Shown: positions 1,760 through 62,692 of the stretch, in pieces
How positions within the stretch are numbered: the first letter of the stretch is position 1
Layout: each line of letters starts with the position of its first letter
Source: Nonlabens sp. Ci31
GTDB taxonomy: Bacteria > Bacteroidota > Bacteroidia > Flavobacteriales > Flavobacteriaceae
Assembly (NCBI RefSeq): GCF_012974865.1
Contig: NZ_CP043633.1
Span: forward strand, 1,302,001 to 1,366,000
Direction of reading: 5' to 3'
Length of the DNA: 64,000 nt
Notes under the pieces: generated by a model
Told to the model about the DNA's origin: nothing
The model's input: the letters and a program-made list of their open reading frames with translations, nothing else
The model's database searches: none
Program-made: the position numbers and the translations under genes

Positions 1760-3730
1760 TTAGCGTACCATTAGTTTCTTGGTGACCACACCTTTTTCTG
1801 AGGCGAGTTTTATAAAGTAAATACCACTGATTTGTGGCGCTGTAAAAACCATCGCAGGACGTTCATGCAATTGGTTTTTATAATCTATAATCAACCTTCC
1901 ATGAAGGTCATAGATTTTAAGATCTGTCAAAACAGTATGTTCTGTACTAATTTGAAAAGTGTTGGAAGTAGGGTTGGGGAATAGTTGAAATTCCGCTTTC
2001 GCGAAAGCGTCACCTATACCAAGTGTAGCCGTATTATTCTTGCTTATAGTGTTTACATCTGGATCTATTTCTACGGTGACAACGCTAAAAGGAACGCTGA
2101 TGCTAAAGTTTTCATTAAGATGATCGATGTGCAATACTTCCCATTGTTCTTGACCAGCGACTCCTGTAATTTTAACAGGAAGAGCTACCTCAAATAAACT
2201 TACCGAGCTGTGACTGGGCAGCTGCTGGTAGTCCATTGTGATTCCAGTAGGAGTTACTGACCAGTTGATGCTGTGCTGCGGATAGCCTTCTCCATAAATC
2301 CAGTCGGCAAAAAACTCGGTCAGATTTTGCCAGCTAGTAGATTCGGCTATAGCTTTAAAATCTGGTGTTTTTGCATAATTAAAGGACAGTTGTGGGTCGT
2401 TCAAGTAGTTTTGAAGTGTTTGTTGGAAATCGGCAGCACCTATTTTTTCACGTAACATATGCAATACCATGCTGCCTTTGTAATAAGAGAGATTGCCGTT
2501 AAATACACGTCCTACACTCAAGGTATCTTGGGCGGGGACATAAACGCTCCCGTTTGTAGGAGTGGTGGCTCGATTATTTGCATTGATGCGCCAAGACTTA
2601 AAACCGCTCGCTCCGTCCAGATGTTCCACGGTCAATCCTGTGGCATAAGTAGCAAAACTCTCATTGAGCCATATGTCTTGCCAGCTGCCACAAGTCACCT
2701 TATTTCCAAACCACTGATGTGCCAGTTCATGAGCAATTAATCCACGACTAAAGTTACCCATAAAACTTATGGTGGTGTGCTCCATGCCGCCACCCCAGCC
2801 AAATTGCGCGTGACCGTATTTTTCACTTCTAAAGGGATAGGGTCCAAAGGTGGTTTCAAAGAAATTCATAATAGGAACGGTTACCGCAGTACTTGCCTGT
2901 GCCGTTGCGAGATCTTCGGGATACACATAATTATCTATAGGTAAAGCCGTTGACCCGCTCCCAACTAGATCGGTATATCGGGCATAATTAGTTACCGCAA
3001 TAGCAATCAGATAAGCAGGAATGGGATAGTTGTGTTGCCATCTGAACCTTTTTCCAGTGGGTGTTGTAGTTTCTGACAGGAGCAAGCCGTTAGAGACACC
3101 TGTGTTTCCTGCGGGTGTATGTATAATGACTTCTGTTTGATCAATTTTATCGTTAAGGTCTTGTTTGCAGGGCCACCAGGCTTTGGCTCCATAAGGCTCA
3201 GAAAGAGTCCATATAATTCCGACATTATTATGCGTGGTTTGTGCAAAACTTCCAAATCCGCTGGCGATAGGGTTACCGCTATAGGTCACACTTAAACTAT
3301 CTAAAACGCCATTATTTTGCGTTACAGGCAGGTCGATAACCAGTTCGTCATTTCCATTATTAGTATAGGTAAGTGCGACACCTCTTTGTGTGACTTGGCT
3401 TACATTCATATTAGAAGCCAGGTCAAAGGTTATTTGGTTGATGGCACCTACTGCTTCAAAATGTGAGGTAACCGTTCCAGAAATAACGGCAACATCTGGG
3501 TCGGTATCGAGTTCTAGACGTACGTATTTAAGATCGTAATTTGCAGTAGCTTGATGTATACTGCGTAAGGTCGGGTGGATCAAAGAAGATTTTAAGAGGC
3601 AAGCATCTACTCCTGGCTGGGCATAAGCGGCAAGTGTTTGTTGTGCTGCTGCGGCTGTTACTTGCCCTAAGCTGGTCGAGTGGATAGCGAGAACAAAACA
3701 CACCAAAATTAATATTTTAAAACTCTTCAT
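1760..3730 (-). CDS. Secreted M1 family metallopeptidase with T9SS sorting domain
   Basis: Zinc aminopeptidase-like enzyme exported through the Sec and Por (type IX) systems. The ATG at 3730 is preferred over one 14 codons upstream because it starts a clean signal peptide (MKSFKILILVCFVLAIHS). The M1 hallmarks follow: GGGMEH in the exopeptidase-motif position, and HELAHQWFGN with the third zinc ligand in WLNESFATY. The last 80 residues form a type A sorting domain (NPTSNTFQI ... DLHGRLI ... GIYFIKL). A CGCTTTCGCGAAAGCG palindrome encodes AFAKA just before this domain, in the linker. The substrate is unknown. Confidence 0.92.
   Translation of the reverse strand: MKSFKILILVCFVLAIHSTSLGQVTAAAAQQTLAAYAQPGVDACLLKSSLIHPTLRSIHQATANYDLKYVRLELDTDPDVAVISGTVTSHFEAVGAINQITFDLASNMNVSQVTQRGVALTYTNNGNDELVIDLPVTQNNGVLDSLSVTYSGNPIASGFGSFAQTTHNNVGIIWTLSEPYGAKAWWPCKQDLNDKIDQTEVIIHTPAGNTGVSNGLLLSETTTPTGKRFRWQHNYPIPAYLIAIAVTNYARYTDLVGSGSTALPIDNYVYPEDLATAQASTAVTVPIMNFFETTFGPYPFRSEKYGHAQFGWGGGMEHTTISFMGNFSRGLIAHELAHQWFGNKVTCGSWQDIWLNESFATYATGLTVEHLDGASGFKSWRINANNRATTPTNGSVYVPAQDTLSVGRVFNGNLSYYKGSMVLHMLREKIGAADFQQTLQNYLNDPQLSFNYAKTPDFKAIAESTSWQNLTEFFADWIYGEGYPQHSINWSVTPTGITMDYQQLPSHSSVSLFEVALPVKITGVAGQEQWEVLHIDHLNENFSISVPFSVVTVEIDPDVNTISKNNTATLGIGDAFAKAEFQLFPNPTSNTFQISTEHTVLTDLKIYDLHGRLIIDYKNQLHERPAMVFTAPQISGIYFIKLASEKGVVTKKLMVR
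1994..2009. repeat. Iterated palindrome CGCTTTCGCGAAAGCG, copy 1
   Basis: Perfect 16-bp palindrome inside the M1 peptidase gene, read there as AFAKA in the linker before the sorting domain. Confidence 0.9.
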
Positions 3731-3790
3731 TTTATGGAAATTTCTAGCAAGGAAAGTTACAAAACATTCCATATTAGGGTAATTAGGTCG

Positions 3791-5947: not shown

Positions 5948-8359
5948 TTAAAGTCCGCGTTCTTTTTTAGTGGTGCGATTTTGTTCTTCAGGAGTAGTCA
6001 CCTCATTATTTTCCAGTCTGAAATTACCGAAGTTATAAGTAAAGCCCACACTTACTGTTCTCGTTTCTGGCAAGCTCAGATAGAAATTATCTTGATTTAA
6101 ATAACGGGTGGTCATTCTTTGGTTTTGTGTTCTAAAAATATCAGTAAAAGCCAGAGTGAGTTGTGCTCTTCTGTTCCAGAGACTCTTATTAAAACTCATG
6201 TTAACGCCTAAAGAATCTCCCCATTCATAAGTTCCAAAGAGGATGCTCGATAAATAGGTGACGTCTACATCCATAGATAAGGTTCGGTTATCTGCAAGGT
6301 TAAATCTGTTAAAGGAGTTGAGGTAGAATCCAGTAGTAGAATTGACCACATCAACTCCTCCAGATTGAATTGCTCTGGTTTCATTTTCCATGTAGAACAA
6401 ACTTGTACTGATTCCCGTATACCAGCTGCTATTTACATATTGGTAAGTGGCAGCGTCTATGCTGTACTGTAATTCATAGTTCAAGTTGATGCTCTGTGAG
6501 TTCAATACATTAGTAGTATTGTTTTGAAAAGGTACGTCGTTCAACATGTCTGCGGTATACAGAAAATAAGTGTCTAAAAACCAGGTGTTTTTATGGTTCC
6601 AGCTTAAGGTGAATTTGTTATTGAATGCTGGTTGCAGATTAGGATTTCCAGTATTAAAATTAAAGTCATTTATAAAAGTACGGAACGGATTTAAGTCTGC
6701 GTATCGAGGTCTATCAATGGATCTTTTATAGCTTAAAGTGTAAGAATTATTCTCGTTAAATTGGTTGGTCAGTGCTAGATTAGGGAATAACTCCAGGTAT
6801 TCTTGGGTATTCACTTGGCCTAGAGACTCTGAGATTCCCTCTACATCAGTCTGTTCTGCGCGCAATCCAGCGGCAAACGACCATTTTTCCCAACTGCGAT
6901 CTATTTGTGCGTAGGCAGCAAAAATATTTTCGTCATAAAGAAATAAATCAGATTTTGCGGGGTCAAAAACAACGCCACTATTGGTATCAAAGAAATTTTG
7001 TGAACTGCTTGAAGCAACGTTGGAGAATTTTAAACCCGTACTAAAGGCATAATTTCCTATAGAGGTATTGTAATCTAATTTTGCGGTATAAATATCGATT
7101 TCTTGAAGGGCATCAGTTAAAAAACTGTTTGTTCCTGTCGTCGCCTGATTGTTGTCAAAAAATCGGGTGCTTAAATCTTGTAGTTGATCGCTATTGGTAA
7201 AAATGTAATTCCCTTCTAAAGTTAGAGAAGCACCGTTTTCATTAAGACTGTGCTGCCACTGTGCGTTTACAAAGCCATTAGTTCTATTTTTCTCAAATTG
7301 AGAGTCCGCGTTAAATCCAGAAAAGCTCGTTCCTCCATCTGGTAAAATGAGCGTCTCATTTTGATAATTGACATCGTTATTTTGGTTGGTGCTAAAATTA
7401 CCAGAAAAGCTTAAAGCGTTTTTCTTATCTACGTTAATATCAACAATGGTATTGAAGTTATGAGCTGCACTGCGATCTACTTTTTCTAGTTCTGTGAACC
7501 ACCTTTCTGACCTACTGCCATCTGGATTAAAGAAACCTATTTGTGAGTCGTCAAACTTGAAGTCTTTCCTAGGGTTAAAGTTGTAATTGGCATACACATT
7601 AAGCCAGTTGTTCTTGTAAAAATGGGAGCTTCCTACTTGGTATTTAGTAAAGGTTCCTTGGGTCCATTCTCCGTTTACATTTCCTTTATAACCTAGTGAA
7701 ATACCTTTAGAAGTATTGATATTGATCACGGCAACACCTTCTGCATCATAACTCGCCGGCGGGTTTGTAATGACCTCTACACTATTGATATTGTCAGCGC
7801 TATAACTGCGTAGTAATGTACTCAGTTCATCACTAGTCAGGTACACACGCTTGTTGTTGATATAAATCACCGCGGGCGAATTTTGAACCATGTAGGTTCC
7901 TTCCATTTCAAAGACTCCAGGTGTCTTTTTCAATAGGTTTTGAGTGTTTCCCGTACTTAAGACGGTATTTTCTACATTAAAAATTAATCTATCGGTCTTT
8001 TTATCTATAGTAGGTTTGCTTGCGGTTACCACGACAGCCTCCAATTGTTCGGTATCTTCGTCAAGAAAGAAATCTCCTATTTTCCCAGAGCCAGTAATGT
8101 TTTGCTTTCGCGAAAGCGTCACATATCCAACAGAAGAAAACTGAAAGGTGTATGCTCCCTGCTCAAAATTATTGAATTTAAACGTTCCTTTTTCATCTGT
8201 TGCCGTTGCTTTGTAAAAGGTGCTGTCAGGCATTTTAAAAGTTACAACAGTGGCATAGGGGATGGCGACTTTCTCTTTAGTCCATACATTTCCTGTAAGA
8301 TCATTTTGAGCGGTCGTACTAAGGACTAGGAGAAAAATAAAAAAGGGTAAATATTTCAT
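5948..8359 (-). CDS. TonB-dependent receptor-like outer-membrane beta-barrel protein
   Basis: Large outer-membrane protein (803 residues) of the Bacteroidetes receptor group. Order: signal peptide (MKYLPFFIFLLVLSTTAQ), a carboxypeptidase-like regulatory domain (about 20-105), a plug domain (about 115-215, with VEVITNPPASYDAEG), and a long beta-barrel of the OMP_b-brl_3 type to the C-terminus. The substrate is unknown; no SusD partner is next to it, so a glycan SusC role is not supported. A palindrome copy at 8104-8117 encodes LSRK in the N-terminal domain. The last residues after the barrel are charged. Confidence 0.88.
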   Translation of the reverse strand: MKYLPFFIFLLVLSTTAQNDLTGNVWTKEKVAIPYATVVTFKMPDSTFYKATATDEKGTFKFNNFEQGAYTFQFSSVGYVTLSRKQNITGSGKIGDFFLDEDTEQLEAVVVTASKPTIDKKTDRLIFNVENTVLSTGNTQNLLKKTPGVFEMEGTYMVQNSPAVIYINNKRVYLTSDELSTLLRSYSADNINSVEVITNPPASYDAEGVAVININTSKGISLGYKGNVNGEWTQGTFTKYQVGSSHFYKNNWLNVYANYNFNPRKDFKFDDSQIGFFNPDGSRSERWFTELEKVDRSAAHNFNTIVDINVDKKNALSFSGNFSTNQNNDVNYQNETLILPDGGTSFSGFNADSQFEKNRTNGFVNAQWQHSLNENGASLTLEGNYIFTNSDQLQDLSTRFFDNNQATTGTNSFLTDALQEIDIYTAKLDYNTSIGNYAFSTGLKFSNVASSSSQNFFDTNSGVVFDPAKSDLFLYDENIFAAYAQIDRSWEKWSFAAGLRAEQTDVEGISESLGQVNTQEYLELFPNLALTNQFNENNSYTLSYKRSIDRPRYADLNPFRTFINDFNFNTGNPNLQPAFNNKFTLSWNHKNTWFLDTYFLYTADMLNDVPFQNNTTNVLNSQSINLNYELQYSIDAATYQYVNSSWYTGISTSLFYMENETRAIQSGGVDVVNSTTGFYLNSFNRFNLADNRTLSMDVDVTYLSSILFGTYEWGDSLGVNMSFNKSLWNRRAQLTLAFTDIFRTQNQRMTTRYLNQDNFYLSLPETRTVSVGFTYNFGNFRLENNEVTTPEEQNRTTKKERGL
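8104..8117. repeat. Iterated palindrome, copy 2 (14-bp core)
   Basis: GCTTTCGCGAAAGC inside the TonB-type receptor gene, read as LSRK in the regulatory domain. Confidence 0.9.
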
Positions 8360-12274: not shown

Positions 12275-12290
12275 CGCTTTCGCGAAAGCG
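12275..12290. repeat. Iterated palindrome, copy 3
   Basis: Perfect 16-bp copy in the divergent spacer between the antiporter and the universal stress gene, one of three non-coding copies. Confidence 0.9.
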
Positions 12291-15403: not shown

Positions 15404-15478
15404 ACCCACTTATCAAAATAAGTATTAATGTTTAAAGCCATTCTTTTATTAGAGTTGATTTTGTATTTTGCATATCCT

Positions 15479-16333
15479 ATGAAAATACACGCTATAGAAT
15501 CCGGTAATTTTAAGTTGGACGGCGGTGCCATGTTTGGTGTGGTGCCTAAAACTTTATGGACCCGTACTAATCCAGCAGACGCTAACAACATGATTGATAT
15601 GGCAGCACGATGCCTTCTTATCGAGAATGGAGATCGACTGACGCTTATAGATACCGGAATGGGAAATAAGCAGTCAGAGAAGTTTTTTGGCTACTATTAT
15701 ATGGATCACAAATTTGATCTGGACAGCTCATTAAAGGAAAAAGGGTTTTCTAGGGATGATATTACAGACGTATTTTTGACGCACTTGCATTTTGATCATT
15801 GTGGAGGTGTGATTAAGAAAAGTAGCACAGGAGATTTTTTAGAGCCCGCTTTCGCGAAAGCGGTATGCCACACCAACTCCAGTCACTGGAACTGGGCTAC
15901 ACATCCTAACGATAGGGAGAAGGCTAGTTTTTTATCAGAAAACATAAAGCCTATAGAAGAAAATGGGCAGTTGAACTTTATTTCTCAGAACGGTACCTAT
16001 GAGAAACAAAACGAAATGGACTTTGATATTTTATTTGTAGACGGCCATACAGAAAAAATGATGATTCCTCATATTCATATGGGAGATAAGACATTTGTAT
16101 TTATGGCAGATTTGCTTCCTACAGTAGGACACCTGCCATTACCTTATGTGATGGGGTACGATACCAGACCATTATTGACGCTTGGAGAAAAAGAAAAATT
16201 TCTTAATGAGGCGGCAACTAAAGGCTATTACCTTATTTTAGAGCATGACCCTTTTAACGAAATCATCACTGTAAAACACACTGATAAAGGGGTGAGATTA
16301 GACCAAACCTTTACTTTTAAAGACTTATTTTAA
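15479..16333 (+). CDS. MBL-fold metallo-hydrolase
   Basis: Metallo-beta-lactamase fold hydrolase of 284 residues with the two-metal motif THLHFDHCGG and further ligands in FVDGHTEKMM and LEHDP near the C-terminus. The layout is like the AHL-lactonase/quorum-quenching branch of MBL proteins, but the substrate is unknown. ATG 15479 is chosen because the family starts at MKIHAIESG; an upstream ATG would add a hydrophobic 17-residue leader with no clear cleavage site. A palindrome copy at 15847-15862 encodes AFAKA in a surface-like loop. Confidence 0.88.
   Translation: MKIHAIESGNFKLDGGAMFGVVPKTLWTRTNPADANNMIDMAARCLLIENGDRLTLIDTGMGNKQSEKFFGYYYMDHKFDLDSSLKEKGFSRDDITDVFLTHLHFDHCGGVIKKSSTGDFLEPAFAKAVCHTNSSHWNWATHPNDREKASFLSENIKPIEENGQLNFISQNGTYEKQNEMDFDILFVDGHTEKMMIPHIHMGDKTFVFMADLLPTVGHLPLPYVMGYDTRPLLTLGEKEKFLNEAATKGYYLILEHDPFNEIITVKHTDKGVRLDQTFTFKDLF
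15847..15862. repeat. Iterated palindrome, copy 4
   Basis: Perfect 16-bp copy inside the MBL hydrolase gene, read as AFAKA. Confidence 0.9.
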
Positions 16334-19157: not shown

Positions 19158-20207
19158 ATGAATAAGGAAGAGAATATCAAAGTAGGTATTACGATAGGGG
19201 ATCCTAATGGAGTAGGTGGAGAGATTATACTAAAGGCATTTGAGGATCCTAGAATGTTAGAAATGTACACTCCAGTAGTTTTTGCAAGTACAAAACTACT
19301 CTCCTTCTATGCAAAAACATTTGATTTGAAAACTAAAATACACGGTATTACCTCTCTAGACGAGGTTGTTCCAGGGAAGTTTAATGTATTGAGGTTGATT
19401 AAAGAACCATTTATAGTTAACTGGGGCGAGGTAAGTACTGAGGCAGGTAAGCTGGCTATAAGAAGTTTACAAGCAGCTACTGCTGCTCTTAAAGAGAATA
19501 AAATAGACGTATTAGTTACAGCGCCTATCAATAAAGAATCAATTCATTCAGAAGACTTTAAATTTCCAGGACATACCGATTATTTAAATCAAGAACTGGA
19601 AGGAGAAAGCTTAATGTTTATGGTTTCTGATGAGTTACGGGTAGGGTTGCTAACAGACCATGTACCGGTAAAAGATGTCCCTTCAATTATTAACGCAAAA
19701 TTAATTATGACCAAGATAGGAACCATTAAAGAGTCCCTTAAAAAGGATTTTGGAATTAGTAAACCTAGAATAGCCGTTTTAGGAATTAATCCCCACGTAG
19801 GAGATAATGGTGTTATAGGGACAGAAGATCAAGATACACTTATTCCTGCTTTAGAGCAATTACGAGAAGATGGGAATATTATTTTTGGCCCTTATGCGGC
19901 AGATTCCTTCTTCGGAAACAAAAAATACAGAGAATTTGATGCTGTTTTAGCAAGTTATCACGACCAAGGATTGATACCTTTTAAAACGATAGCCTTTGGT
20001 CATGGTGTCAATTATACGGCAGGGCTCAGTCACGTAAGAACAAGTCCCGATCATGGGACAGGCTTTGATATTGCTGGAAAGGGAACCGCAAATCCAGAAT
20101 CATTTGTCGCTGCAATTCATGCTGCAATTGAAATACATCGAAAGCGTAAAGAGTATGAAACCTTGAATGAAAACCCGTTGAAAAAACTTTCTCGCAAACG
20201 AAGGTGA
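19158..20207 (+). CDS. pdxA: 4-hydroxythreonine-4-phosphate dehydrogenase
   Basis: NAD-dependent enzyme of the DXP-dependent vitamin B6 pathway. The 349-residue protein starts with IKVGITIGDPNGVGGEII, has VTAPINKESI, the metal-binding histidines in FPGHTDYLNQE and SYHDQGLIPFK, and the C-terminal signature VRTSPDHGTGFDIAGKG. Length is normal. It is followed by the DUF177-rpmF-fabH-acc block, which has its own promoter box, so co-transcription is optional. Confidence 0.96.
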   Translation: MNKEENIKVGITIGDPNGVGGEIILKAFEDPRMLEMYTPVVFASTKLLSFYAKTFDLKTKIHGITSLDEVVPGKFNVLRLIKEPFIVNWGEVSTEAGKLAIRSLQAATAALKENKIDVLVTAPINKESIHSEDFKFPGHTDYLNQELEGESLMFMVSDELRVGLLTDHVPVKDVPSIINAKLIMTKIGTIKESLKKDFGISKPRIAVLGINPHVGDNGVIGTEDQDTLIPALEQLREDGNIIFGPYAADSFFGNKKYREFDAVLASYHDQGLIPFKTIAFGHGVNYTAGLSHVRTSPDHGTGFDIAGKGTANPESFVAAIHAAIEIHRKRKEYETLNENPLKKLSRKRR

Positions 20208-22660: not shown

Positions 22661-22807
22661 ATAGTAAAAGGATTTTTTATGTCTTAGTGTTGGTTTTGCC
22701 TCTGATTTCTTATTGCTTTTGCGAAAGTGAAACAGAAACGAGTTATGCTGATTTTGATGCAGTACTAGAGCAGACTAATGACCAGTACCTTATTAAAAAG
22801 AAACATC
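22661..22807. other. accB-accC spacer with a degenerate palindrome
   Basis: The 147-base spacer has a degraded palindrome copy at 22715-22728 and an ATG at 22778 that would give accC a 10-residue extension; the family start is at 22808. Confidence 0.5.
22715..22728. repeat. Iterated palindrome, degenerate copy 5
   Basis: GCTTTTGCGAAAGT, two changes from the core, followed by the same AAACA flank as several perfect copies. Non-coding, between accB and accC. Confidence 0.6.
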
Positions 22808-24310: not shown

Positions 24311-27300
24311 ATGAAGTTGAAGTTGTTTTTTATTCTGGTGTTTTGCTGCTCAATAGGTGGTGCACAAGAGTATACCAACTTGAAAAAAAAACGTGTTGCT
24401 GTTAAGGATTCTATTCCCCTAGATTCTATAAGTATCAATCCAGCTTATTTTAAAGTAGTGGATAAAATAGGTAGGACTATCGACAGTTCTCGTTACAGCG
24501 TTAATTTTTCCACTTCTATTTTAACCTTTAAAAATAAAACGGAAATAGGTACAGATTCTATAGATGTCACTTATTTACCATTACCTGATTTTCTTACCAA
24601 GTCTTATCAATTCTACGACCCTAGTATTATTCTAGATAATGACAGTAGACAAGAACAATTAGTGGCACTACAGCAACCGACTGCAGTAAATACCTTTATT
24701 CCTTTTGATGGTCTGCAAACTTCTGGAAGTATTACCAGAGGTGTACGCGTAGGGAATAATCAAAACAGTGTAGTAGATTCTGAACTGGATTTAAGAATTA
24801 CAGGAAAACTCAGTGATAAAGTATCACTGAGAGCTTCTATTCAAGATGCAAACGTACCACAAACCCAAAATGGATATTCCCAACGACTGGATGAATTTGA
24901 TCAAATATTTATAGAACTATACAGTGAAGACTGGAATATAAGAGCAGGAGACGTAGACTTAATACAAGAAAATTACCAATTCAATAACTTTACAAAACGC
25001 GTTCAGGGAATTTCTGGACAGGTAAAGTTTAATGGAGACGACTCTTCTGGTTATGCAGGTGCTTCTGGAGCTTTGGTTAGAGGTACTTTTAACATCAGTA
25101 GATTTACTGGTCAGGAAGGGAATCAAGGCCCGTATAAGCTCACTGGTCAGAACGAAGAGTTGTTTATACTAGTGGTTTCAGGAAGTGAGCGTGTTTTTGT
25201 AAATGGTGTCCCTTTAAAAAGAGGAGAAAATCAAGATTATGTGATCGATTATAATGCCGGGGAAGTGCGTTTTACCCCCACATTTCCTATTACTAGTGAA
25301 ATGCGTATTTCTATAGAATACCAATATAGTGAGCGTAATTTCACCAGGTTTATAGGTTATGGAACAGGTGGCTTTAAGTCTGACAAATTCCAAATAGATT
25401 CTTACATCTACACAGAAACCGATGCAAAAAACCAGCCGCTACAACAAAACCTAAGCGAAGATCAAGTAGCGATTTTGGTAGATGCTGGAGATGACAGAGA
25501 ACTAGCCATTGCGCCCAGTGCCATAGCAAATGAGTTTTCTGAAAATCAGATTCTTTATCGCAGAGAAGTCGTGAACGGTGAAGAGCGTTTTATTTTTTCT
25601 CAAAATAGAACATTACAACTGTTTAACGTGAGATTCAGCTTTTTAGGTGAAAATCAAGGGGATTACCGACTCATTAATGAACAGGCTATTGCAAATATTT
25701 ATGAATACATTGCACCTATAAATGGCGTGTCCCAAGGAAGTTATGATCCAGTTATCCAATTATTTTCCCCAGAAATTTTAACTATTACTGGAATTAAAGC
25801 TAGTTATGAGCCTGCTACAGGCACTAAGATATTTACAGAGCTCGCAGCAAGTAATAAGGATTTAAATAAATTCTCTTCCATTGACGATAATGATAATAAA
25901 GGTGTTGCCGTAAAACTCGCCGTACAACAACAATTGCGCAAAAAGGATAGCCTGCAGTCGTTGAATGTAAATTTAAACACAGATTATATTCAAGAAAATT
26001 TTAGAAATGTAGAGCGAGTTTATAATATTGAATTTAACAGAGACTGGAATATAGAAACGACTAGGGGGAATCAGCTATTTACCACTTTAGGGCTCAATTA
26101 TGAGCTGGATTCTACCTTAACTTCATCTTATAAATTGGAGCATTTAGAATTTGACGGATTTTATAAAGGGAACAGGCATGAAATTGCTGCTGCTTATCAA
26201 GATAGTTTATGGAAGGCTCGCTTTCGCGGAAGCGTACTAAATACAAAATCTACAGAACAAGAGTCTGAATTTAATAGAGTAAATGTTGATGTGTTAAGGA
26301 AAATCAATAACTACTATGTGGGGACGCGATTAGAAAGTGAAAATAATCAGCAACGACTTACCGCTACAGATGAGCTTACTGGGCTATCTCAAAAATTTAC
26401 TGGTTATGAAATTTATGCAGGACGTGGCGATACGACAACGACTTTTGTAGAGATCGGTTATAGAAATAGGACAAACGACAGTTTAAGAATGGGCAATCTT
26501 ACTAGAGTAAACAGCTCTAACAACTATTACATTAAGTCACAACCCATTAAAAATGAGTTTAGTAGGTTACGTGTATTTGCCAACTACAGAAAATTAAAAA
26601 GCGATCTAGAGGGTTTTTCAGATGAGGTTTCTTTTAATTCAAGAATACAGTATAAACGTAAGATTTATGATGGTAAAATATTGTGGAACACCACTTATGA
26701 AACCAATAGCGCGCGTATTCCAAGACAGGATTTTACTTATGTATCTGTAAATCCTGGTCAGGGAACTTTTACATGGATTGATTATAATAACGATGGTATT
26801 CAGGACCTCAATGAATTTGAAGTTGCTCAATTTCAAGATCAGGCGAGTTTTGTAAGGATTTTACTGCCTAATCAGGTGTTCTTGCCCACGCACCAAAATA
26901 AATTTTCTCAAACGCTGACTTTAAATCCTATCTCTTGGACTGATGAAAAAGGCTATAAAAAGTTTTTTTCTCGATTTTATAACCAGACCAGTTATTTAAT
27001 TGACCGTATGGTAGCGAGAGAAGGAGAAAATTTTGACTTAAATCCATTTCAAAGCAGCGATAATCAACTGGGATTGAACCTTAGCTTTAGAAACAGTTTG
27101 TTCTTTAATAGAGGCAAGCAAAATTTTACTACTAATTACACTTATTTAAGTACGGCAAATGAAAATTTACAAAGTATAGGGAGCATATCTAATGACATAG
27201 AAAGTCATCAATTGCGATTTTTACATAAGATTGAGGACACGTGGCTGGTAACCATAAATGCACAATCAGGAATTAACGCGAGCAGTAGTGAAAACTTTAC

Positions 27301-31836: not shown

Positions 31837-33207
31837 TTAAGCAAACAAATACCTCACTAAATCTTCAATTTTTGAGAAGGCTTGCACTTCTGTTCCTACA
31901 TTTTTAAAACTTTGTTTTCCTGGAGCGATAAACACTTTTTCAAAACCTAGTTTTGCGACCTCATTCACACGTTGTTCCATGCGGCTTACTGGTCTTATTT
32001 CTCCTCCTAAACCTACTTCTGCACTGAAGCAGTGTTGTGAAGATAGCTCTATGTCAAAATTAGAAGAAAGAATAGCAGCTACTACGGCAAGGTCTATAGC
32101 TGGATCATCCACAGTGATTCCTCCTGTAATATTGAGAAAAACATCTTTTTGACCTAATTTAAAACCGGCCCTTTTTTCAAGAACCGCAAGAATCATATTT
32201 AATCTCTTCAAATTGTAACCAGTCGCACTGCGTTGAGGAGTTCCATAAACTGCCGTACTCACTAATGCTTGCACTTCTATCATAAGTGGTCGCATTCCTT
32301 CCATGGTAGCGGCGATTGCCGTACCACTTAAGGTAGCGCCACGTTGTGAGATTAAAATTTCACTAGGGTTGACTACTTCTCTAAGTCCGTGACCGAGCAT
32401 TTCATAAATACCTATTTCATGGGTGCTTCCAAAACGATTCTTTAGGGCTCTCAAAATCCTATACGTATGATTGCGATCTCCTTCAAATTGAAGCACCGTA
32501 TCCACCATGTGTTCCAAAATTTTTGGTCCAGCAATATTTCCGTCTTTGGTAATATGACCTATTAGAAGTACGGGTGTGTTGGTTTCTTTAGCAAATTTGA
32601 TGAGTTCACTGGTACATTCTCTAATTTGTGAAACACTACCTGGAGAACTTTCAATATGATCTGTTTGTAGAGTTTGAATAGAGTCAATAATCAATACATC
32701 TGGCTCTACTTCAGTGATTTGTCTAAAGATATTTTGCGTCTTGGTTTCGGTAAGAATATAGCAGTTCACTGCTTCATTTTTAATACGGTCAGCACGCATT
32801 TTGATTTGCTGCGCACTTTCTTCTCCAGATACATAAAGTGTTTTGTAGGGCAAATTGAGACATACTTGTAGCAATAAAGTGGATTTTCCTATCCCAGGTT
32901 CTCCACCTAGAAGGGTGATCGATCCAGGGACTAATCCACCACCTAGAACTCTATTAAATTCTGCATTTGTAGTGTCCATTCTAGGACTTTCGGCGGCATC
33001 AATTTTGGAAATCAATTGTGGCTGAGGGGCTCGCTTTCGCGAAAGCGGAACATCTACAACATTACTTTCCCAAGATTTTTTAGTTTCTTTTTGAACGATC
33101 TCTTCCACCAGAGTGTTCCATTCTTTACAGGTCGAACACTGTCCTTGCCACTTAGAATGTTGGGCGCCACAATTTTGGCAAAACCAAGTCGTTTTTACTT
33201 TGGCCAT
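31837..33207 (-). CDS. radA: DNA repair protein RadA
   Basis: RecA-like ATPase that promotes branch migration in recombination. Order in the 456 residues: N-terminal C4 zinc finger (CQNCGAQHSKWQGQCSTC), Walker A GGEPGIGKST, the RadA motif LKNRFGST and a C-terminal Lon-like domain. A palindrome copy encodes LSRKR near residue 57, in the linker between zinc finger and ATPase core. Its start abuts the stop of the esterase-like gene, so it is the last gene of the panD operon. Confidence 0.96.
   Translation of the reverse strand: MAKVKTTWFCQNCGAQHSKWQGQCSTCKEWNTLVEEIVQKETKKSWESNVVDVPLSRKRAPQPQLISKIDAAESPRMDTTNAEFNRVLGGGLVPGSITLLGGEPGIGKSTLLLQVCLNLPYKTLYVSGEESAQQIKMRADRIKNEAVNCYILTETKTQNIFRQITEVEPDVLIIDSIQTLQTDHIESSPGSVSQIRECTSELIKFAKETNTPVLLIGHITKDGNIAGPKILEHMVDTVLQFEGDRNHTYRILRALKNRFGSTHEIGIYEMLGHGLREVVNPSEILISQRGATLSGTAIAATMEGMRPLMIEVQALVSTAVYGTPQRSATGYNLKRLNMILAVLEKRAGFKLGQKDVFLNITGGITVDDPAIDLAVVAAILSSNFDIELSSQHCFSAEVGLGGEIRPVSRMEQRVNEVAKLGFEKVFIAPGKQSFKNVGTEVQAFSKIEDLVRYLFA
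33032..33047. repeat. Iterated palindrome, copy 7
   Basis: Perfect 16-bp copy inside radA with flank GAACA on the plus strand, read as LSRKR between zinc finger and ATPase core. Confidence 0.9.
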
Positions 33208-34413: not shown

Positions 34414-35397
34414 TTATTTACTTGAAAGACTGCCTTTCACAGATAATAATAGAAGAGATATGGAGCCATAAACTAAAACTAGAATGGTTTGAGACAACCA
34501 TAAAATCCATCCAAAAGAGGTTCCTAAAGGTTCTGAAACACCAAAAACCAACAGCACCTGAGCTATAAAATAGGGGTAAGCACCAAAACCGCCATTTGTG
34601 AAGGCTACAGCAAAGCTACCAGCCACAAAAGCACATAGAATGGCACTTATGGGTATAGTGGCTATTCCAGGTATAGCAAAAATACTAACGTAAAACATGA
34701 GTAAATACATGCCCCAAATAAATAAGGTATGTAGGAAGTACCACCATTTTTTCTTCATGGTCCAGATGGTCATAAACCCTTCTTTCATGCCTAGGATAAA
34801 ACTTTTTAGTCTATTAAATAGCTGCATACGTCTCGATATGAAAACGATCAAAATAACTAATACCAGAAATATACCAGAATAGAGCAAGATTTTTGACGGT
34901 TCTGCTTTCGCGAAAGCGGAATCTAAACGAGCTTTAAAGAAGTTAATAATGGCATCACCAGCAGTAAAAATAGCGACCGCTGTAATTATTAAAAGGACCA
35001 TAAGGTCGAGCACGCGCTCTGCAATAATAGTTCCAATTGCTTTATCCATAGGCACCTGATCGGAGCGATTAACAATAGCAGCTCTTGAAATTTCACCACT
35101 GCGAGGAATGATAAGATTCATGGCGTAGCCAGCTCCTATTGCCATAACATTAGTTATAAATTTAGGTGTTGCGCCCAAAGTTTCCAGCATATAGTTCCAT
35201 CTCCATGCTCTAGATAGATGACTTAAAAAAGCAAAAATTACAGAGAGAATGATCCATGCATAGTCTGCATCGAGGAGATAAGAATAAATTTTATCTCGCT
35301 CTAGATCTGTAAACTGGTTGTAGGAATAATAAATGAGAAAAAAGCCTAAGAATAATGGGAGAGCAATCTTTAATATTTTGAAGAGAGTTTTTTTCAC
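34414..35397 (-). CDS. LPG-synthase/YbhN-like membrane protein
   Basis: Integral membrane protein (327 residues) of the lysylphosphatidylglycerol-synthase transmembrane (YbhN/UPF0104) family, with about eight membrane segments and the family patterns SHLSRAWRWNYML and GAYPYFIAQVLLV. The start is GTG. It has no C-terminal aminoacyl-transferase domain, so it is not a full MprF. A palindrome copy at 34904 encodes AFAKA in a loop. It lies 3 bases after panD and is probably co-transcribed. The likely role is lipid or undecaprenyl-related transport, by family only. Confidence 0.85.
   Translation of the reverse strand: MKKTLFKILKIALPLFLGFFLIYYSYNQFTDLERDKIYSYLLDADYAWIILSVIFAFLSHLSRAWRWNYMLETLGATPKFITNVMAIGAGYAMNLIIPRSGEISRAAIVNRSDQVPMDKAIGTIIAERVLDLMVLLIITAVAIFTAGDAIINFFKARLDSAFAKAEPSKILLYSGIFLVLVILIVFISRRMQLFNRLKSFILGMKEGFMTIWTMKKKWWYFLHTLFIWGMYLLMFYVSIFAIPGIATIPISAILCAFVAGSFAVAFTNGGFGAYPYFIAQVLLVFGVSEPLGTSFGWILWLSQTILVLVYGSISLLLLSVKGSLSSK
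34904..34917. repeat. Iterated palindrome, copy 8 (14-bp core)
   Basis: Core copy inside the YbhN-like gene, read as AFAKA in a loop between membrane segments. Confidence 0.9.
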
Positions 35398-46757: not shown

Positions 46758-46773
46758 CGCTTTCGCGAAAGAG
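46758..46773. repeat. Iterated palindrome, degenerate copy 9
   Basis: CGCTTTCGCGAAAGAG, one change from the 16-bp form, flank GAACA as in several others; intergenic, between the ankyrin gene and the XRE module. Confidence 0.75.
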
Positions 46774-48568: not shown

Positions 48569-49690
48569 ATGCTTCCAGATAAACTACAAGCTCTTTTAGG
48601 TATGCGTCACTTTTCAGGAAGTTTGCGTAAACTCACTGTAAATAAAGGTTTGGTAGATTTTTCTTCTAACGATTACCTAGGTTTTTCAAAGTTACCGGTA
48701 ACCGCATCACACTCTTCAAATGGTGCGACGGGCAGCAGGCTTATTTCTGGACACAGCGAGTTGCACAATCAGGTAGAAAATCAAATTGCAGCGTTTCACA
48801 ATGCACCAGCAGCATTACTGTTTAATTCGGGTTACGACGCAAACATAGGACTCATCCCTGCGTTAACAGATCGCGCAGATTTGATCCTTTTTGACCAGTT
48901 GGTTCATGCTAGCATACGTGATGGAATTCAATTGTCGCAGGCTAAATCACTTAAATACCGTCATAACGATTTTGATCATCTCGAGATTTTATTGTCTAAA
49001 TTCAGCGAGGAAGAAGAGCGCGAGGTGTATGTCATTACAGAGTCTGTTTTTTCTATGGATGGCGATATGCCAGACCTTAAGAAATTGGTAGAATTAGTAA
49101 TGCGATTTGAAAATGCACACTTGATTTTGGACGAGGCGCACGCCTTGGGTGTTATAGGAAAAAGCGGTGCTGGTCTCGCCCATGAACTGGATGTAGAAAA
49201 TGATATTTTTGCTCGAGTGGTCACTTTTGGCAAAGGCTTGGGCTGTCATGGTGCGGCTGTTTTAGGAAGTGGAGATCTTAAGGAATATTTGATCAATTAT
49301 GCCCGTAGCTTTATTTATACAACCGCACTTCCAGAGCATTCGTTGCGGTCTATTGCTTATGGTTACCGCACTTTGAGTCAGGGGGAAGATGCCGTCTCTC
49401 GATTAACCCATAACATAGGACTTTTTAATAAATTGGTGCTGCAAAATGGTTTGAGACTACGCTTTCGCGAAAGCGAGACAGCCATCCAAGTATGTATCAT
49501 TCCAAAAAACGACAAAGTAAAAAAGGCAGCACGTGTACTACAAGAAAATGGCTATGATGTACGAGCCATTCTTTCTCCTACAGTAAGTCAGGGAGAAGAA
49601 CGATTGCGCGTCTGTATTCATAGTTATAATACAGGAAATGAAATGGAAAACATGCTGAAATTGCTTGCCAAAACCCTAAAAAATCTATGA
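48569..49690 (+). CDS. bioF: 8-amino-7-oxononanoate synthase (KAPA synthase)
   Basis: PLP enzyme of biotin synthesis that condenses pimeloyl thioester with alanine. The 373-residue protein has FSSNDYLGFS, the aspartate LILDEAHALGVIG and the PLP-lysine motif VVTFGKGLGCHGA. The length is a little shorter than typical (about 385). A palindrome copy at 49460 encodes RFRES. It is the first gene of a run with overlapping junctions to the DUF2007, bioD and bioA genes. Confidence 0.95.
   Translation: MLPDKLQALLGMRHFSGSLRKLTVNKGLVDFSSNDYLGFSKLPVTASHSSNGATGSRLISGHSELHNQVENQIAAFHNAPAALLFNSGYDANIGLIPALTDRADLILFDQLVHASIRDGIQLSQAKSLKYRHNDFDHLEILLSKFSEEEEREVYVITESVFSMDGDMPDLKKLVELVMRFENAHLILDEAHALGVIGKSGAGLAHELDVENDIFARVVTFGKGLGCHGAAVLGSGDLKEYLINYARSFIYTTALPEHSLRSIAYGYRTLSQGEDAVSRLTHNIGLFNKLVLQNGLRLRFRESETAIQVCIIPKNDKVKKAARVLQENGYDVRAILSPTVSQGEERLRVCIHSYNTGNEMENMLKLLAKTLKNL
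49460..49475. repeat. Iterated palindrome, copy 10
   Basis: Perfect 16-bp copy inside bioF, read as RFRES. Confidence 0.9.
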
Positions 49691-51984: not shown

Positions 51985-52206
51985 TTTTTTCCATCGTCAC
52001 CAGTGAGATTTAAGTGGAGTTGTTCCCTTATATGCTTAAACAAATGTTGATGATCACATAAAAAATATCAAAAAAACAAGGAGGTTTTACAATGTCTCTA
52101 GAACTTCTAATGCTCTATTTTTAAGGTGTAACGCTTAGGATTTTTTTTCTACAATTCATTCTAAGTCTAACTTCTTTTGACGATTTTTGCAAGAGTTAAA
52201 AAGCCA

Positions 52207-53328
52207 GTGAAAAACCCTATTTACATCAACGATGCAGCGATGATTGCTGCGATAGATTCATTTACGAATCAAGAGTCAGCTCCTTTTTTTAAGAAAAAAA
52301 ATAAGGCTTGGATCAGTCCTATTTCAAAAGTAAAGGAAGATCAATTGCAAGCTTTTTTAAGAGATCATGATGCTTATAAATCGTTGGATCGCAGTGTGCA
52401 TCTGGCGATTTTTGCAGCGAGGTCCTTAAACCATATTCCAGAGCAAACGGCGGTAAATATAGGTTCTAGTCGCGGTGCTACTGGATTGTGGGAGGAATAT
52501 TATTCTCGCTTTCGCGAAAGCGGAACAGTTCCAACAGCAACTTCTCCATTAACTACTTTGGGGAATGTCTCTAGTTGGGTAGCTCAAGATTTGGGATTGA
52601 AAGGAACAGCTTTTTCTCATAGCATTACTTGTGCAACGGCATCGCATGCCATCCTCAATGCTATCGCTTGGCTAGAAAGCGGTATGGCAACGAGTTTTAT
52701 CGCTGGCGGAAGTGAAGCGCCATTGACTGATTTTACCATAGCCCAAATGCAAGCCTTGCGCATTTATTCAAGAGAAACCGGTCGGTATCCGTGCAGGTCA
52801 TTGGATTTAGATAAGTCACAAAATTCGATGATTTTAGGGGAGGCAGCAGCCTGTTTTTTACTTTCTAAAGAAGACAAGAACAGCCTTGCCAAAATCACTG
52901 GATACGGAAGTGCCATCGAAAAATTAAATAGTCCCACTTCTCTTACGGAAAGTGGAGAATGCCTGCAAGAATCCATGAGACAGGCTATACAGCACATAGA
53001 TCTGGAAACGGTAGATGCGATCATTACACACGCGCCTGGAACTATTAAAGGTGATAAAGCAGAGTTTACTGCTATAAAAGCAGTTTTTGGAGATCGTTAT
53101 CCACACTTGTGTAATAACAAATGGCAATTAGGTCACTCGCTTGGGGCAAGTAGTGCCCTTAATCTACACATGGCAATCGAAATGCTGCAATCAGAAACTA
53201 TTTTTAAAATTCCTTATTTAGAAGAAGCCTTGGTAAACCCGCGGGGAGATGTAAGAGCTCCTAACCGCATTTTGATCAATGCAACGGGATTTGGAGGTAA
53301 CGCAGTGAGTTTGTTGGTCGAGAAATAA
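52207..53328 (+). CDS. Beta-ketoacyl synthase of the KAS I/II type in the biotin cluster
   Basis: Thiolase-fold condensing enzyme of about 373 residues with catalytic Cys in SITCATASHAILNAI, His in ITHAPGTIKGDKAEF and His in LGHSLGASSALNLHMA. It is shorter than FabF (about 415), and sequence identity to FabF is not obvious. It lies between bioA and bioB, so a role in building the pimeloyl precursor is a reasonable inference. The GTG at 52207 is preferred, with a TTG 30 bases upstream as alternative. A palindrome copy encodes RFRESG. Confidence 0.8.
   Translation: MKNPIYINDAAMIAAIDSFTNQESAPFFKKKNKAWISPISKVKEDQLQAFLRDHDAYKSLDRSVHLAIFAARSLNHIPEQTAVNIGSSRGATGLWEEYYSRFRESGTVPTATSPLTTLGNVSSWVAQDLGLKGTAFSHSITCATASHAILNAIAWLESGMATSFIAGGSEAPLTDFTIAQMQALRIYSRETGRYPCRSLDLDKSQNSMILGEAAACFLLSKEDKNSLAKITGYGSAIEKLNSPTSLTESGECLQESMRQAIQHIDLETVDAIITHAPGTIKGDKAEFTAIKAVFGDRYPHLCNNKWQLGHSLGASSALNLHMAIEMLQSETIFKIPYLEEALVNPRGDVRAPNRILINATGFGGNAVSLLVEK
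52507..52522. repeat. Iterated palindrome, copy 11
   Basis: Perfect 16-bp copy inside the KAS gene with flank GAACA, read as RFRESGT. Confidence 0.9.
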
Positions 53329-55516: not shown

Positions 55517-55993
55517 CTAATTAGGTATGAGCTCTACTGTTTTGGCATAAACCAGGTGGCTTTCCCAACCGCGATAGAGAAGGTAATCGGCTAGTTTTTT
55601 ACGTTTTTTGTATGTATCGGTTTCCGTTGTGAGTTGTTGTAACCGCTTTCGCGAAAGCCTATCAAAAGCAATTTCGTAATCATCATTAGAAATCTCTTTA
55701 AGACCTATTTTTATAGTACGCTCGTTCAAACCTTTCATTTTAAGTTCGCGTACGATACGAACTCTGCCCCAACTTTTAATACGGAATTTCCCTCTAGCAA
55801 AAGCTTCGGCATAGCGTGTTTCATTCAAAAACTTGTGGTGGATCAAATGCGGGATGATTTCATCTATCGCAAGTTGGATCATTCCCATACTCTTCAATTT
55901 ATCTTCTATCTCTTTATGACAGCGCTCTTGATAAGCGCAGTACCGCTCTATAGAACGAGTCGCTTCTTCAACGGTGTAGGTGTCTTTGGACAT
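55517..55993 (-). CDS. recX: Regulatory protein RecX
   Basis: Small three-helix-repeat protein that modulates RecA (158 residues). RecX hallmarks: LIHHKFLNETRYAEAFARGKFRIKSWGRVRI, which matches the family core, followed by ELKMKGLNERTI. A palindrome copy at 55645 encodes LSRKR in the third repeat. It is alone; recA is not in the window. Confidence 0.93.
   Translation of the reverse strand: MSKDTYTVEEATRSIERYCAYQERCHKEIEDKLKSMGMIQLAIDEIIPHLIHHKFLNETRYAEAFARGKFRIKSWGRVRIVRELKMKGLNERTIKIGLKEISNDDYEIAFDRLSRKRLQQLTTETDTYKKRKKLADYLLYRGWESHLVYAKTVELIPN
55645..55658. repeat. Iterated palindrome, copy 12 (14-bp core)
   Basis: Core copy inside recX, read as LSRKR. Confidence 0.9.
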
Positions 55994-60185: not shown

Positions 60186-61049
60186 ATGAACACACAAGAA
60201 CTCCTTAAAAAAGTACGTAAGATCGAGATCAAAACGCGTCGCTTGAGCGATGCTGTTTTTGGTGGCGAGTACCACAGTGCTTTTAAAGGGCGCGGAATGA
60301 CTTTTAGCGAGGTGCGGCAGTACCAGTTTGGTGATGATGTGCGTAATATCGATTGGAACGTAACCGCTCGATACAGTGAGCCCTATATCAAAGTTTTTGA
60401 GGAAGAACGGGAGTTGACCTTAATGTTGGTAGCAGACATTAGCGGCTCTACACTTTTTGGAACTCAAGAGCAAATCAAAAAAGAAATTATAACAGAGTTG
60501 TGCGCTACACTGGCATTCAGCGCTATGCAAAACAATGATAAAGTAGGATTGCTTTTATTTTCTGATCAGGTAGAATTGTACATTCCGCCTAAGAAAGGGA
60601 AATTTCATATTCTTAGAATTATAAGAGAATTGCTAGAATTTAAAGCTATAGGTAAAGGAACAGATGTGGCTGGAGCATTGAAGTTTCTAGCCGGTGTCCT
60701 TAAGAAAAAAGCCATCGTATTTGTGATGTCAGATTTCATGAGTGCCGATTATAAAAAAACGCTTCAAATTGCAGGACGCAAACACGATGTCACTGGAATT
60801 AGAGTTTATGACCAGCGTGAGGCAGAAATGCCTAAAATGGGACTCGTACAATTCAAAGATCAAGAAACAGGAAAAACACAGTTGATCAATACCAGTTCTA
60901 AATCGGTACGCATTAAATATGCCGCTTATCACAAAGAATGCGCTGCTTATTTTAAAGATGCTTTTACAAGATCTGATGCAGGCGCCATAGATTTAGAAAC
61001 ACAAGAGAATTATACCAAGAAACTATTAGGATACTTTAAAGCACGATGA
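60186..61049 (+). CDS. DUF58 / VWA-like protein of the Bat cluster
   Basis: DUF58 protein (287 residues) with core FKGRGMTFSEVRQYQFGDDVRNIDWNVTAR and a vWA-like domain with the MIDAS-like ADISGS. Acts with MoxR in many bacteria. It overlaps the next gene by 4 bases (ATGA). Cytosolic. Confidence 0.93.
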   Translation: MNTQELLKKVRKIEIKTRRLSDAVFGGEYHSAFKGRGMTFSEVRQYQFGDDVRNIDWNVTARYSEPYIKVFEEERELTLMLVADISGSTLFGTQEQIKKEIITELCATLAFSAMQNNDKVGLLLFSDQVELYIPPKKGKFHILRIIRELLEFKAIGKGTDVAGALKFLAGVLKKKAIVFVMSDFMSADYKKTLQIAGRKHDVTGIRVYDQREAEMPKMGLVQFKDQETGKTQLINTSSKSVRIKYAAYHKECAAYFKDAFTRSDAGAIDLETQENYTKKLLGYFKAR

Positions 61050-62692
61050 TCAAAAAACTAGTGTACATATCGTTTTTATTATGCATCGCCATAACTACTG
61101 CTCAAGATCAGACAAAGAAAGAGGTGGTTACTAAGGTAGATCGCGACTTGATCAAAATAGGGGAAGAAGTAAAACTAGGAATCAGTGTAGAAGCTGACTT
61201 AGGTGATTTGATCATTTTTCCCGAACAACAAACTATGGGTGCCATGGAAGTGCTGCAAAGTTACCCAGTAGATAGCTTGAGAATTGCCGATAAAATCAGG
61301 TTGTTCAAGCAATACGGCATTACGCAATTTGACTCGGGTGACTACTGGGTGCCACGATTGCAGATATTGAAAAACAGCCGAAGCATACAATCAGACTCTG
61401 TACTGATAAGCGTGAGAGAAGTGGTTGTTGACACTACTAAGCAAGGCATGTTTCCTATAAAGGATTCGGTAGATATAGAAGATCAATCCACTCTTTCTTA
61501 CAGCTGGATGTGGTGGTTATTGCTATTAATTCCTGTGGGGCTTTTAGTAGTTTTGCTTTCGCGAAAGCGGGAACAAAAAACCTATGAAGAAACGTTACAA
61601 CCTTACGAGTGGACCAAATATCGTCTCAAACTGCTGGACGAAAGTGGTCGTTTAGAAAACCGCGAATGGAAGCAATATTATACAGAGCTTACGTATATTA
61701 TTAGAAGGTACATCGATTCTAAAGTCTACGGTCAGACGCTGGAAAGTACCACTGGACAATTGATTAAAGAGCTGAAAATTGCGATGTCAGAAAAAGACAT
61801 GCACATTACCGATAAAACACAATCCAGGCTAGAAGAAATCCTTCAAAAAGCCGATTTGGTAAAATTTGCTACTGCCAGTGGAGATGCGATAAGTGCTAAG
61901 GAAGACCGACAGCGCACTATGGAAATTATTAATAATATCCATCAAGTACTACCACCGCCTACTGAAGAAGAACTCATGCAGGATGCGCGTTACAGACGCA
62001 AGCAAGAAATTAAAAAACGCACTCGCAACCTATTAATCGGTATCGCAGTAGGTGTTGTTGCTTTGGGAATTGCGGCTGGAATCTGGGGCTACCTATCAGG
62101 ATTTGATAATGTAAAAGACAAGGTTTTTGGGAATTCTCAAAGAGCACTTACAGAGCAAACATGGTTGACTAGTGAATACGGGATGCCGCCTGTTCAATTG
62201 AATTCACCAGATATTTTGGTACGTCAAGACACTACCGTTTTAAGTGATCAATTCTCTGTTATTGCCGCCACAGTAGATCAATTTGCGTCTGGAGAACTCT
62301 CTGATGATTTTTATATAGGTGTGATCACATTTACTTTAAAGGGTCAAGGTCCTAAAGAAGAAAGTCAATTATCTAAAGAAATGGCACACGATAATATGAT
62401 TCAAATGCTTGATGGAATGGGAGCTACTGATATTTTAATGCTCGATGATGACGTAGAAATTAATGGTATAAATGGAGTTTCGCTAGAAGGTACTTATAAT
62501 CTAGATGGTGAGGATTATGAATATGAAATTCTCATGATGCTCAATAAAGTAGGAATAGATCAAATAATTATCAGTAATAAAAAGGACGATGAAGAAGATT
62601 CTGATCGCGAATTCGGAAGAATTTTGAGAGAACGGGTAAGAAGTTCTATTGTATTTCCATCTTTTGATGATGGTAAAAAGAAGAAAGAATAA
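61046..62692 (+). CDS. BatD-like membrane protein of the Bat cluster
   Basis: Membrane protein of 548 residues with a signal peptide (MIKKLVYISFLLCIAITTAQ), a periplasmic domain, membrane segments near 155-175 and 330-350, a cytosolic helical region, and an acidic C-terminal domain. The first half resembles BatD/oxygen tolerance proteins. A palindrome copy encodes LSRKR right behind the first membrane segment. The DUF58 gene overlaps its start and the BatA gene overlaps its stop by 1 base. Confidence 0.7.
   Translation: MIKKLVYISFLLCIAITTAQDQTKKEVVTKVDRDLIKIGEEVKLGISVEADLGDLIIFPEQQTMGAMEVLQSYPVDSLRIADKIRLFKQYGITQFDSGDYWVPRLQILKNSRSIQSDSVLISVREVVVDTTKQGMFPIKDSVDIEDQSTLSYSWMWWLLLLIPVGLLVVLLSRKREQKTYEETLQPYEWTKYRLKLLDESGRLENREWKQYYTELTYIIRRYIDSKVYGQTLESTTGQLIKELKIAMSEKDMHITDKTQSRLEEILQKADLVKFATASGDAISAKEDRQRTMEIINNIHQVLPPPTEEELMQDARYRRKQEIKKRTRNLLIGIAVGVVALGIAAGIWGYLSGFDNVKDKVFGNSQRALTEQTWLTSEYGMPPVQLNSPDILVRQDTTVLSDQFSVIAATVDQFASGELSDDFYIGVITFTLKGQGPKEESQLSKEMAHDNMIQMLDGMGATDILMLDDDVEINGINGVSLEGTYNLDGEDYEYEILMMLNKVGIDQIIISNKKDDEEDSDREFGRILRERVRSSIVFPSFDDGKKKKE
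61555..61568. repeat. Iterated palindrome, copy 13 (14-bp core)
   Basis: Core copy inside the BatD-like gene with GGAACA flank, read as LSRKR after the first membrane segment. Confidence 0.9.

Follow-up and report, generated by a model that had tools for sequence, protein, structure and literature searches.

The origin of DNA uptake sequences is an old dispute, and the reader of the DNA uptake sequence (DUS) of the Neisseriaceae is ComP. As of 2006, only two bacterial families, both of them proteobacterial, were known to have uptake sequences; according to Redfield et al. 2006 (PMC1626085), both DUS and the uptake signal sequence (USS) are spaced more regularly than random, favor non-coding DNA and occur as perfect copies more often than as singly mismatched ones, an exactness contrasted there with the sites of regulatory proteins, and the USS also has very long stability, an origin by substitution and AT-rich flank motifs. 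Riemerella columbina, treated as kin within the Flavobacteriaceae in the paper on it, is competent and prefers its own DNA, and the k-mers tabulated in that paper are only A/T-rich ones of 7-10 bp (PMC7965970). The literature that we searched, with most subscription journals and all preprints outside the search, contains no uptake sequence described in the Bacteroidetes/Bacteroidota, nor the word reported here, either as a 14-mer or as a 12-mer. This word is a 14-bp palindrome, GCTTTCGCGAAAGC, considered also as the 12-mer CTTTCGCGAAAG, of Nonlabens sp. Ci31 (Flavobacteriaceae), noticed in a stretch of 64,000 bp (contig NZ_CP043633.1, positions 1,302,001 to 1,366,000; hereafter the window).

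The palindrome occurs in hundreds of exact copies, which arose mostly by substitution, are kept in diverged relatives, lie apart from one another and have symmetric flanks. Since each of the habits listed above for USS and DUS is found in its own genus, we regard the palindrome as most likely a signal, similar in kind to uptake sequences, by which cells recognize their own DNA, a reading in which our confidence is about even. Import, a receptor and a recombination bias are what we infer from this pattern.

Abundance and phylogenetic distribution

Thirteen copies were located in the window, all within one base of the positions given by the initial annotation, whose counts of ten perfect 14-bp cores and ten coding copies also stand; the other three (12275, 22714 and 46758) were read by eye as lying between open reading frames (ORFs). 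Measured against the 16-bp form of the word, six copies are exact, another six deviate at a single base and the last deviates at three. Shuffled versions of the window contain a mean of 0.10 copies, with a maximum of 2 in 100 shuffles. In the complete chromosome (3,740,082 bp, one contig) the 12-mer is found 504 times and its reversed word once, and the 14-mer 487 times and its reversed word never, the first-order expectation for the 14-mer in those dense stretches that were tested being at most ~0.0001 per 20 kb. The genome-wide count proposed as a test by the initial annotation is thus far above expectation. Of 20 chromosome stretches that were sampled, 19 contain sites. The 14-mer is carried by each of the 23 genomes of the genus, at 288-857 copies per genome, and the density in dense genomes is ~0.12-0.25 per kb.

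Any copy at all is found in 44 of 199 genomes of the family (nearly one per genus), and the only dense ones are G000 (Ci31 itself) and G010, both of the own genus, and G190, of another genus. A set of 397 family genomes from 237 genera contains 80 with any copy and an additional dense genus, represented by G634 with 857 copies. Dense genera therefore number 3 of the 237 sampled in the Flavobacteriaceae, and the next-highest counts among the 397 genomes are 19, 17 and 16. These belong to G714, G051 and G076, respectively, the first and last being of one genus (g76); they are well above background and far below dense. A sample of 395 genomes from the class includes 24 that carry the word, with a maximum of 4 copies outside the own genus. 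In a tree of a single gene, LepA, G190 falls outside the own genus and groups with Aquimarina, Salegentibacter and Aequorivita.

A survey of 20 kb from each of 20 genera, which has power for dense words only, found no comparable palindrome; counts of 4-5 are seen for a few non-palindromic 11-mers. The 11-mer GAGCGAGAGCG (either strand) occurs five times in 20 kb of a single genome (G073:C1:300001-320000), far above expectation, and is possibly a local repeat.

Architecture of the site

In the own genus, a G adjoins the core in 85-93% of flanks. Beyond it, the right flank is A/C-rich and G-poor and the left flank is its mirror image (T/G-rich), out to ~18-25 bp, with preferences that peak near +3/+4 and +10 to +13. 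G190, with 46% G+C in the sample, has a weaker form of the same pattern. In G634 (24 sites), T is frequent at +2 (0.65) and A at +3 (0.85), whereas Ci31 prefers A or G at +2; the preference in G634 is possibly a dialect.

The scores of the left and right flanks correlate positively (r = 0.33, n = 253). This correlation, together with the mirror-wise preference on both sides, implies that the site is symmetric and without direction, and the direction that had been read from a right flank of GAACA or AAACA is not borne out. In none of the four groups do the letters of the two flanks match above the level seen with shuffled partners, which argues against selection for a hairpin, and the hairpin reading was rejected on this basis. 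An intrinsic terminator was rejected as well, since 171 of 229 sites lie in genes, the flanks lack covariation and convergent gaps hold 7 of 56 intergenic sites against 15.6% of intergenic length. The symmetric core and flanks would instead fit a protein of two-fold symmetry bound to double-stranded DNA.

Conservation and origin of the copies

Sites keep their positions in relatives with 73-89% identity over the aligned DNA. Exact 14-mers of the window are kept at 9 of 10 alignable places in G208, 8 of 10 in G219, 7 of 7 in G202, 5 of 5 in G201, 4 of 5 in both G204 and G212, 3 of 3 in G214 and 2 of 2 in G205, while other 14-mers of the window are identical in 26% of cases in G208 and in 2-6% in the other seven relatives. 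The gene radA illustrates this point. Its CTTTCGCGAAAG (CTT TCG CGA AAG) is identical in 20 of the 22 genus genomes with a readable N-terminus, Ci31 included, and decayed in two, and the neighboring codons and residues vary around the conserved word (the count omits G203, in which the gene is partial, and stretch L180 was not aligned). In the seven outgroups aligned, the word is absent and the linker that would hold it is 2-5 codons shorter.

Exact copies outnumber copies with one mismatch by 62:11 in Ci31, 97:13 in its relatives, 54:20 in G190 and 24:2 in G634, an excess that holds despite 42 possible one-mismatch words. Thirty control palindromes of equal composition have no exact copy in the first three of these samples. 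Siteless genera show no clear remains of the palindrome: no copy within one mismatch was found in 400 kb and 371 kb from two of them, copies with two mismatches number 0 and 1, and those with three number 21 and 18, where controls average 9.3 and 6.5 and their range includes the observed counts.

Sixteen distinct coding loci with a usable outgroup, merged by eye from 73 alignment rows, bear on the origin of the copies. Ten align without a gap and two with a gap of one residue, and the gaps beside sites have no constant length; comparisons with G190 in which only one side has the site are mostly ungapped as well. Coding copies therefore arose mostly by substitution, for instance by the change of AFKNA to AFAKA. 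Conservation of the peptide in outgroups lacking the palindrome, which the initial annotation had named as evidence that would count against the element, was not seen at alignable loci, the nearest case being that same AFKNA. One site is found at the identical residue in G190 and in the own genus, which may reflect convergence at a tolerant peptide, or transfer.

Placement and spacing

Non-coding DNA makes up 10.6% of bases in stretches of Ci31, its relatives and G190 but contains 58 of the 229 sites there. This excess is seen in Ci31 (21 of 65 sites, 13.3% of bases) and in its relatives (30 of 110, 8.9%). All three reading frames of the palindrome are used by coding sites, as had been claimed from the window: AFAKA 22 times in Ci31 and 29 in the relatives, the LSRKR-type frame 12 and 18 times, and the RFRES-type frame 7 and 21 times.

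Spacing was computed on the first listed places only, that is, 100, 100 and 94 sites of G000 (12-mers), G190 and a third genome, G199, and the statements on gaps that follow hold among these matches listed. Gaps below 1.5 kb number 11 against 62 expected (291 gaps). The coefficient of variation (CV) of the spacing is 0.70 in G000 and 0.68 in G190, where 0.99 is expected (P 0.0001), and even in G199 gaps below 1 kb are 5 against 18 expected. Five stretches chosen to be free of exact 14-mers were taken from the four longest gaps of G000. Three of these gaps contain transposases, a finding that we count in favor of an uptake-type signal; one of the three has an Ssp/Pbe-like defense cluster and another has glycosyltransferases. 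The siteless stretch of 34 kb at 488-520 kb of the chromosome carries SspA/B/C/D-like phosphorothioation defense genes and a PbeA-like gene (L283:9340-19780, L284:421-1305).

Copies in other genera and in mobile DNA

Copies outside the dense genera are few, and many of them are clustered. Eight siteless genera (stretches L131-L142 and L149) have DNA in common at ~65-97% identity, with several sites at homologous places, some of them decayed by one or two bases. In the three annotated stretches (L131, L132 and L139), this DNA is a metal-efflux island, for example L131:3640-16605, with genes for a resistance-nodulation-division (RND) pump, an outer-membrane efflux protein, P-type ATPases and a Fur-family regulator; on account of these genes, a conjugative element was rejected as the source of the copies. 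The island genes read as having passed through, or been exported from, a dense lineage. One palindrome in an efflux-pump gene, at L139:4640, is interrupted in L132 by extra sequence, a net 24 bases.

Viral contigs among the matches listed also bear sites. They include L346, with integrase and tape-measure matches, and L332, with terminase and portal matches (37-38% G+C); L362, which matches an unknown phage family only; and the unannotated contigs L350, L354, L363 and L387. The flanks of these sites are typical by eye. Mobile DNA in such hosts is thus not free of the word. One viral site recurs in contigs from several metagenomes. Many of the matches listed in a scan with the bare 14-mer are G+C-rich and probably due to chance. 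Phage P12024S, the recorded host of which is Persicivirga (Nonlabens), has no copy within two mismatches in the 35,000 of 35,700 bases scanned.

A putative uptake signal

If the palindrome is an uptake-type signal, cells would be naturally competent, and a DNA-binding protein with two-fold symmetry, located on their surface or in their periplasm, would hold the GCTTTCGCGAAAGC core and contact the A/C-rich flanks (T/G-rich in mirror image) about one and two helical turns out. Fragments that bear a site would be imported and recombined more often than siteless ones, such that alleles with a site newly born by mutation would be copied into the genomes of relatives at a higher rate than siteless alleles, and broken sites would be overwritten. 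Copies would accumulate where proteins tolerate AFAKA, RFRES or LSRKR. A second site nearby on the same fragment would bring no gain, which would explain the scarcity of gaps below 1.5 kb. The ComEC family (PF03772), which we count toward the feasibility of uptake, is present in each of the 34 genomes tested, dense and siteless alike.

Several observations weigh against this reading. ComEC, being universal in the set, does not separate dense from siteless genera. PF00437, the ATPase of pili and type II secretion systems, scores above the cut-off in only 3 of the 20 dense genomes tested and not in the other 17, which makes a ComP/pilus route unlikely and leaves the type IV pilus unsupported as the uptake machine; weak matches below the cut-off occur in 34 of 34 genomes. 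The palindrome appears to behave like an uptake sequence, yet the pilus marker mostly does not accompany it. No receptor for the palindrome was found among the genes examined. G190 lacks the non-coding excess (7 of 54 sites against 9.6% of bases) and has the commonest mismatched copies (54:20), and the spacing of G199 has a CV of 0.92 (P = 0.25). The fourth long gap of G000 (L285) contains ordinary genes, such as mfd and recO, and one site with one mismatch. At 4 of the 16 coding loci the outgroup is 3-7 residues shorter beside the site, and phage-like contigs bear sites. Finally, the USS and DUS cores are non-palindromic and near 1 per kb (PMC1626085); the word described here is a palindrome at ~0.12-0.25 per kb.

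In the own genus and in G190, an Endonuclease_NS gene lies near comEC, where none was found in two siteless genera. This candidate lead was dropped, since 144 of 199 family genomes have relatives of the gene.

Alternative explanations

The main rival is a chromosome-organizing or nucleoid protein, similar to those of matS or parS sites, that would bind the palindrome as a dimer, with scattered sites as anchors and the copies under ordinary selection. It would explain the symmetry, spacing and conservation nearly as well as an uptake signal: a symmetric core and flanks without left-right covariation fit a dimer on double-stranded DNA, the sites are evenly spaced and deeply conserved at orthologous places, and all but one of the sampled chromosome stretches contain them. 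Hundreds of sites, mostly in genes and fixing protein sequence, are nevertheless many for such a role, and neither their presence in metal-efflux islands and phage-like contigs nor their density in so few of the genera sampled would be expected from it. The strong excess of exact over mismatched copies is likewise called unlike the sites of regulatory proteins in PMC1626085. We consider this explanation unlikely, although it is the one to be taken most seriously after the uptake signal.

Some other function, such as an RNA-level signal or a Chi-like recombination word, appears improbable. The word is self-complementary and its density resembles that of a recombination word, but the flanks lack the covariation of a hairpin stem and convergent gene ends are not favored. 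Chi-type words are short and directional, which counts against a Chi-like reading.

A little less probable still is a mechanism in the manner of HIP1 (highly iterated palindrome 1), in which the palindrome would be made and kept by a repair bias together with a DNA methyltransferase whose target is an inner word (TCGCGA or CGCG). HIP1, as described in PMC4390886, is likewise palindromic, iterated and read in several frames. However, 8 of 19 genus genomes, as well as G190, lack PF00145 C5 methylases, so that a C5 methylase is excluded as a universal partner, a result that covers the C5 type alone. The conserved unit, moreover, is 14-16 bp plus flanks: of 95 occurrences of TCGCGA in the Ci31 sample, 69 are within TTCGCGAA and 62 within the full 14-mer.

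A very small mobile palindromic element inserted many times, akin to repetitive extragenic palindromes or miniature inverted-repeat transposable elements, would fit the exactness of the copies, the four gapped loci, the shorter RadA linkers of outgroups and the presence of the word in gene islands of other genera, but it is largely refuted and highly improbable, given the 12 loci with at most a one-residue gap, the lack of a fixed insert length and flanks that are degenerate and not copied. Of the analogies offered by the initial annotation (HIP1, uptake sequences, parS/matS-type sites and a mobile repeat), the uptake sequence is therefore the one that we rank first, the mobile repeat is mostly refuted, and the methylase has lost the C5 type as a general partner.

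Copies in the window

The 13 copies are given in Table 1.

Table 1. Palindrome copies in the window, with gene context and state in relatives of the genus (signs are gene strands; the sites carry none)
Position	Copy	Context	Frame	Relatives and outgroups
1994..2009	exact 16 bp	M1 peptidase gene 1760-3772 - (Pfam)	AFAKA	core at equivalent place in G208, G219
8103..8118	perfect 14-bp core	outer-membrane beta-barrel gene 5948-8359 - (Pfam)	LSRK	retained in G208, G219
12275..12290	exact 16 bp	between ORFs		retained in G208, G202, G219, G214
15847..15862	exact 16 bp	metallo-beta-lactamase-fold gene 15428-16333 +	AFAKA	retained in G208, G202, G214; one mismatch in G219; outgroups AFKNA, ungapped
22714..22729	degenerate, 3 mismatches, interpreted as decayed	between ORFs 22181-22660 and 22778-24157		exact 12-bp core at equivalent place in G202, G208
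26219..26234	one-mismatch variant	ORF 24311-27718 +	RFRGS	identical variant in G208, G202, G219
33032..33047	exact 16 bp	radA/sms-like gene 31837-33207 -, linker	LSRKR	
34903..34918	perfect 14-bp core	LPG_synthase_TM gene 34414-35397 -	AFAKA	retained in G202, G219, G201, G204, G212, G205; one mismatch in G208
46758..46773	one mismatch	between ORFs		alignable only in G219 (of 8 relatives), not retained there
49460..49475	exact 16 bp	aminotransferase (bioF-like) gene 48569-49690 +	RFRES	retained in G208, G202, G219, G201, G204, G212; outgroup ungapped
52507..52522	exact 16 bp	ketoacyl-synthase gene 52177-53328 +	RFRES	retained in G208, G202, G219, G201; absent in G204, G212
55644..55659	perfect 14-bp core	recX 55517-55993 -	LSRKR	retained in G208, G202, G219, G201, G204, G212
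61554..61569	perfect 14-bp core	ORF 61046-62692 +	LSRKR	retained in G208; diverged in G219

A PdxA-like protein of the window offers a side view of the LSRKR frame. In G190, the C-terminus of this protein (L242:17816-18943) reads LSRK and the palindrome is present there; the Ci31 protein ends in LSRKRR (window 20187-20207), spelled by codons other than those of the palindrome.

Significance

We tentatively propose, at somewhat less than even confidence, that some Flavobacteriaceae, of three genera or more, possess a sequence-specific DNA uptake system that evolved separately from the two known families, in which a receptor of two-fold symmetry would read a palindromic 14-bp signal and type IV pili would play no part. 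If so, this would be a third origin of DNA uptake signals, in another phylum and with a different geometry, and would point to an unknown DNA receptor; with dense genera next to siteless ones, such a case would also allow the molecular-drive model to be tested. Should the palindrome instead be a chromosome-organizing site, its density and exactness would be unusual for that kind. In both cases the word is of use in following gene transfer, as with the metal-efflux island that it marks in siteless genera.

Comparison with known systems

Sites of the parS and matS kinds are palindromic and of the dimer type, but far fewer and regional, and the half-site layout of parS differs from the palindrome described here. 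HIP1 of the cyanobacteria shares with it the character of an iterated palindrome, and its extensions stay palindromic in some genomes (PMC4390886); HIP1, however, is an 8-bp word, GCGATCGC, tied in that paper to orphan methylases for GATC and CGATCG. The word described here differs from GCGATCGC, its core being GCTTTCGCGAAAGC, and the dense genomes have no universal C5 methylase.

The DUS of the Neisseriaceae is likewise an iterated exact word, regularly spaced and genus-wide, although it is a 10-bp non-palindromic word without flank motifs (PMC1626085), and, unlike DUS hosts, most of the dense genomes tested lack a PF00437 ATPase above the cut-off. The same paper gives the USS of Haemophilus influenzae and the Pasteurellaceae high copy number, a prevalence of perfect copies, regular spacing, a preference for non-coding DNA with many copies nonetheless in genes, an origin by substitution and AT-rich flank segments (PMC1626085), and in these respects the element of Nonlabens is alike. 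The USS core, AAGTGCGGT, is non-palindromic, with one-sided flank motifs and a density near 1 per kb (PMC1626085), whereas the element described here is a 14-bp palindrome with mirror flanks at ~0.12-0.25 per kb.

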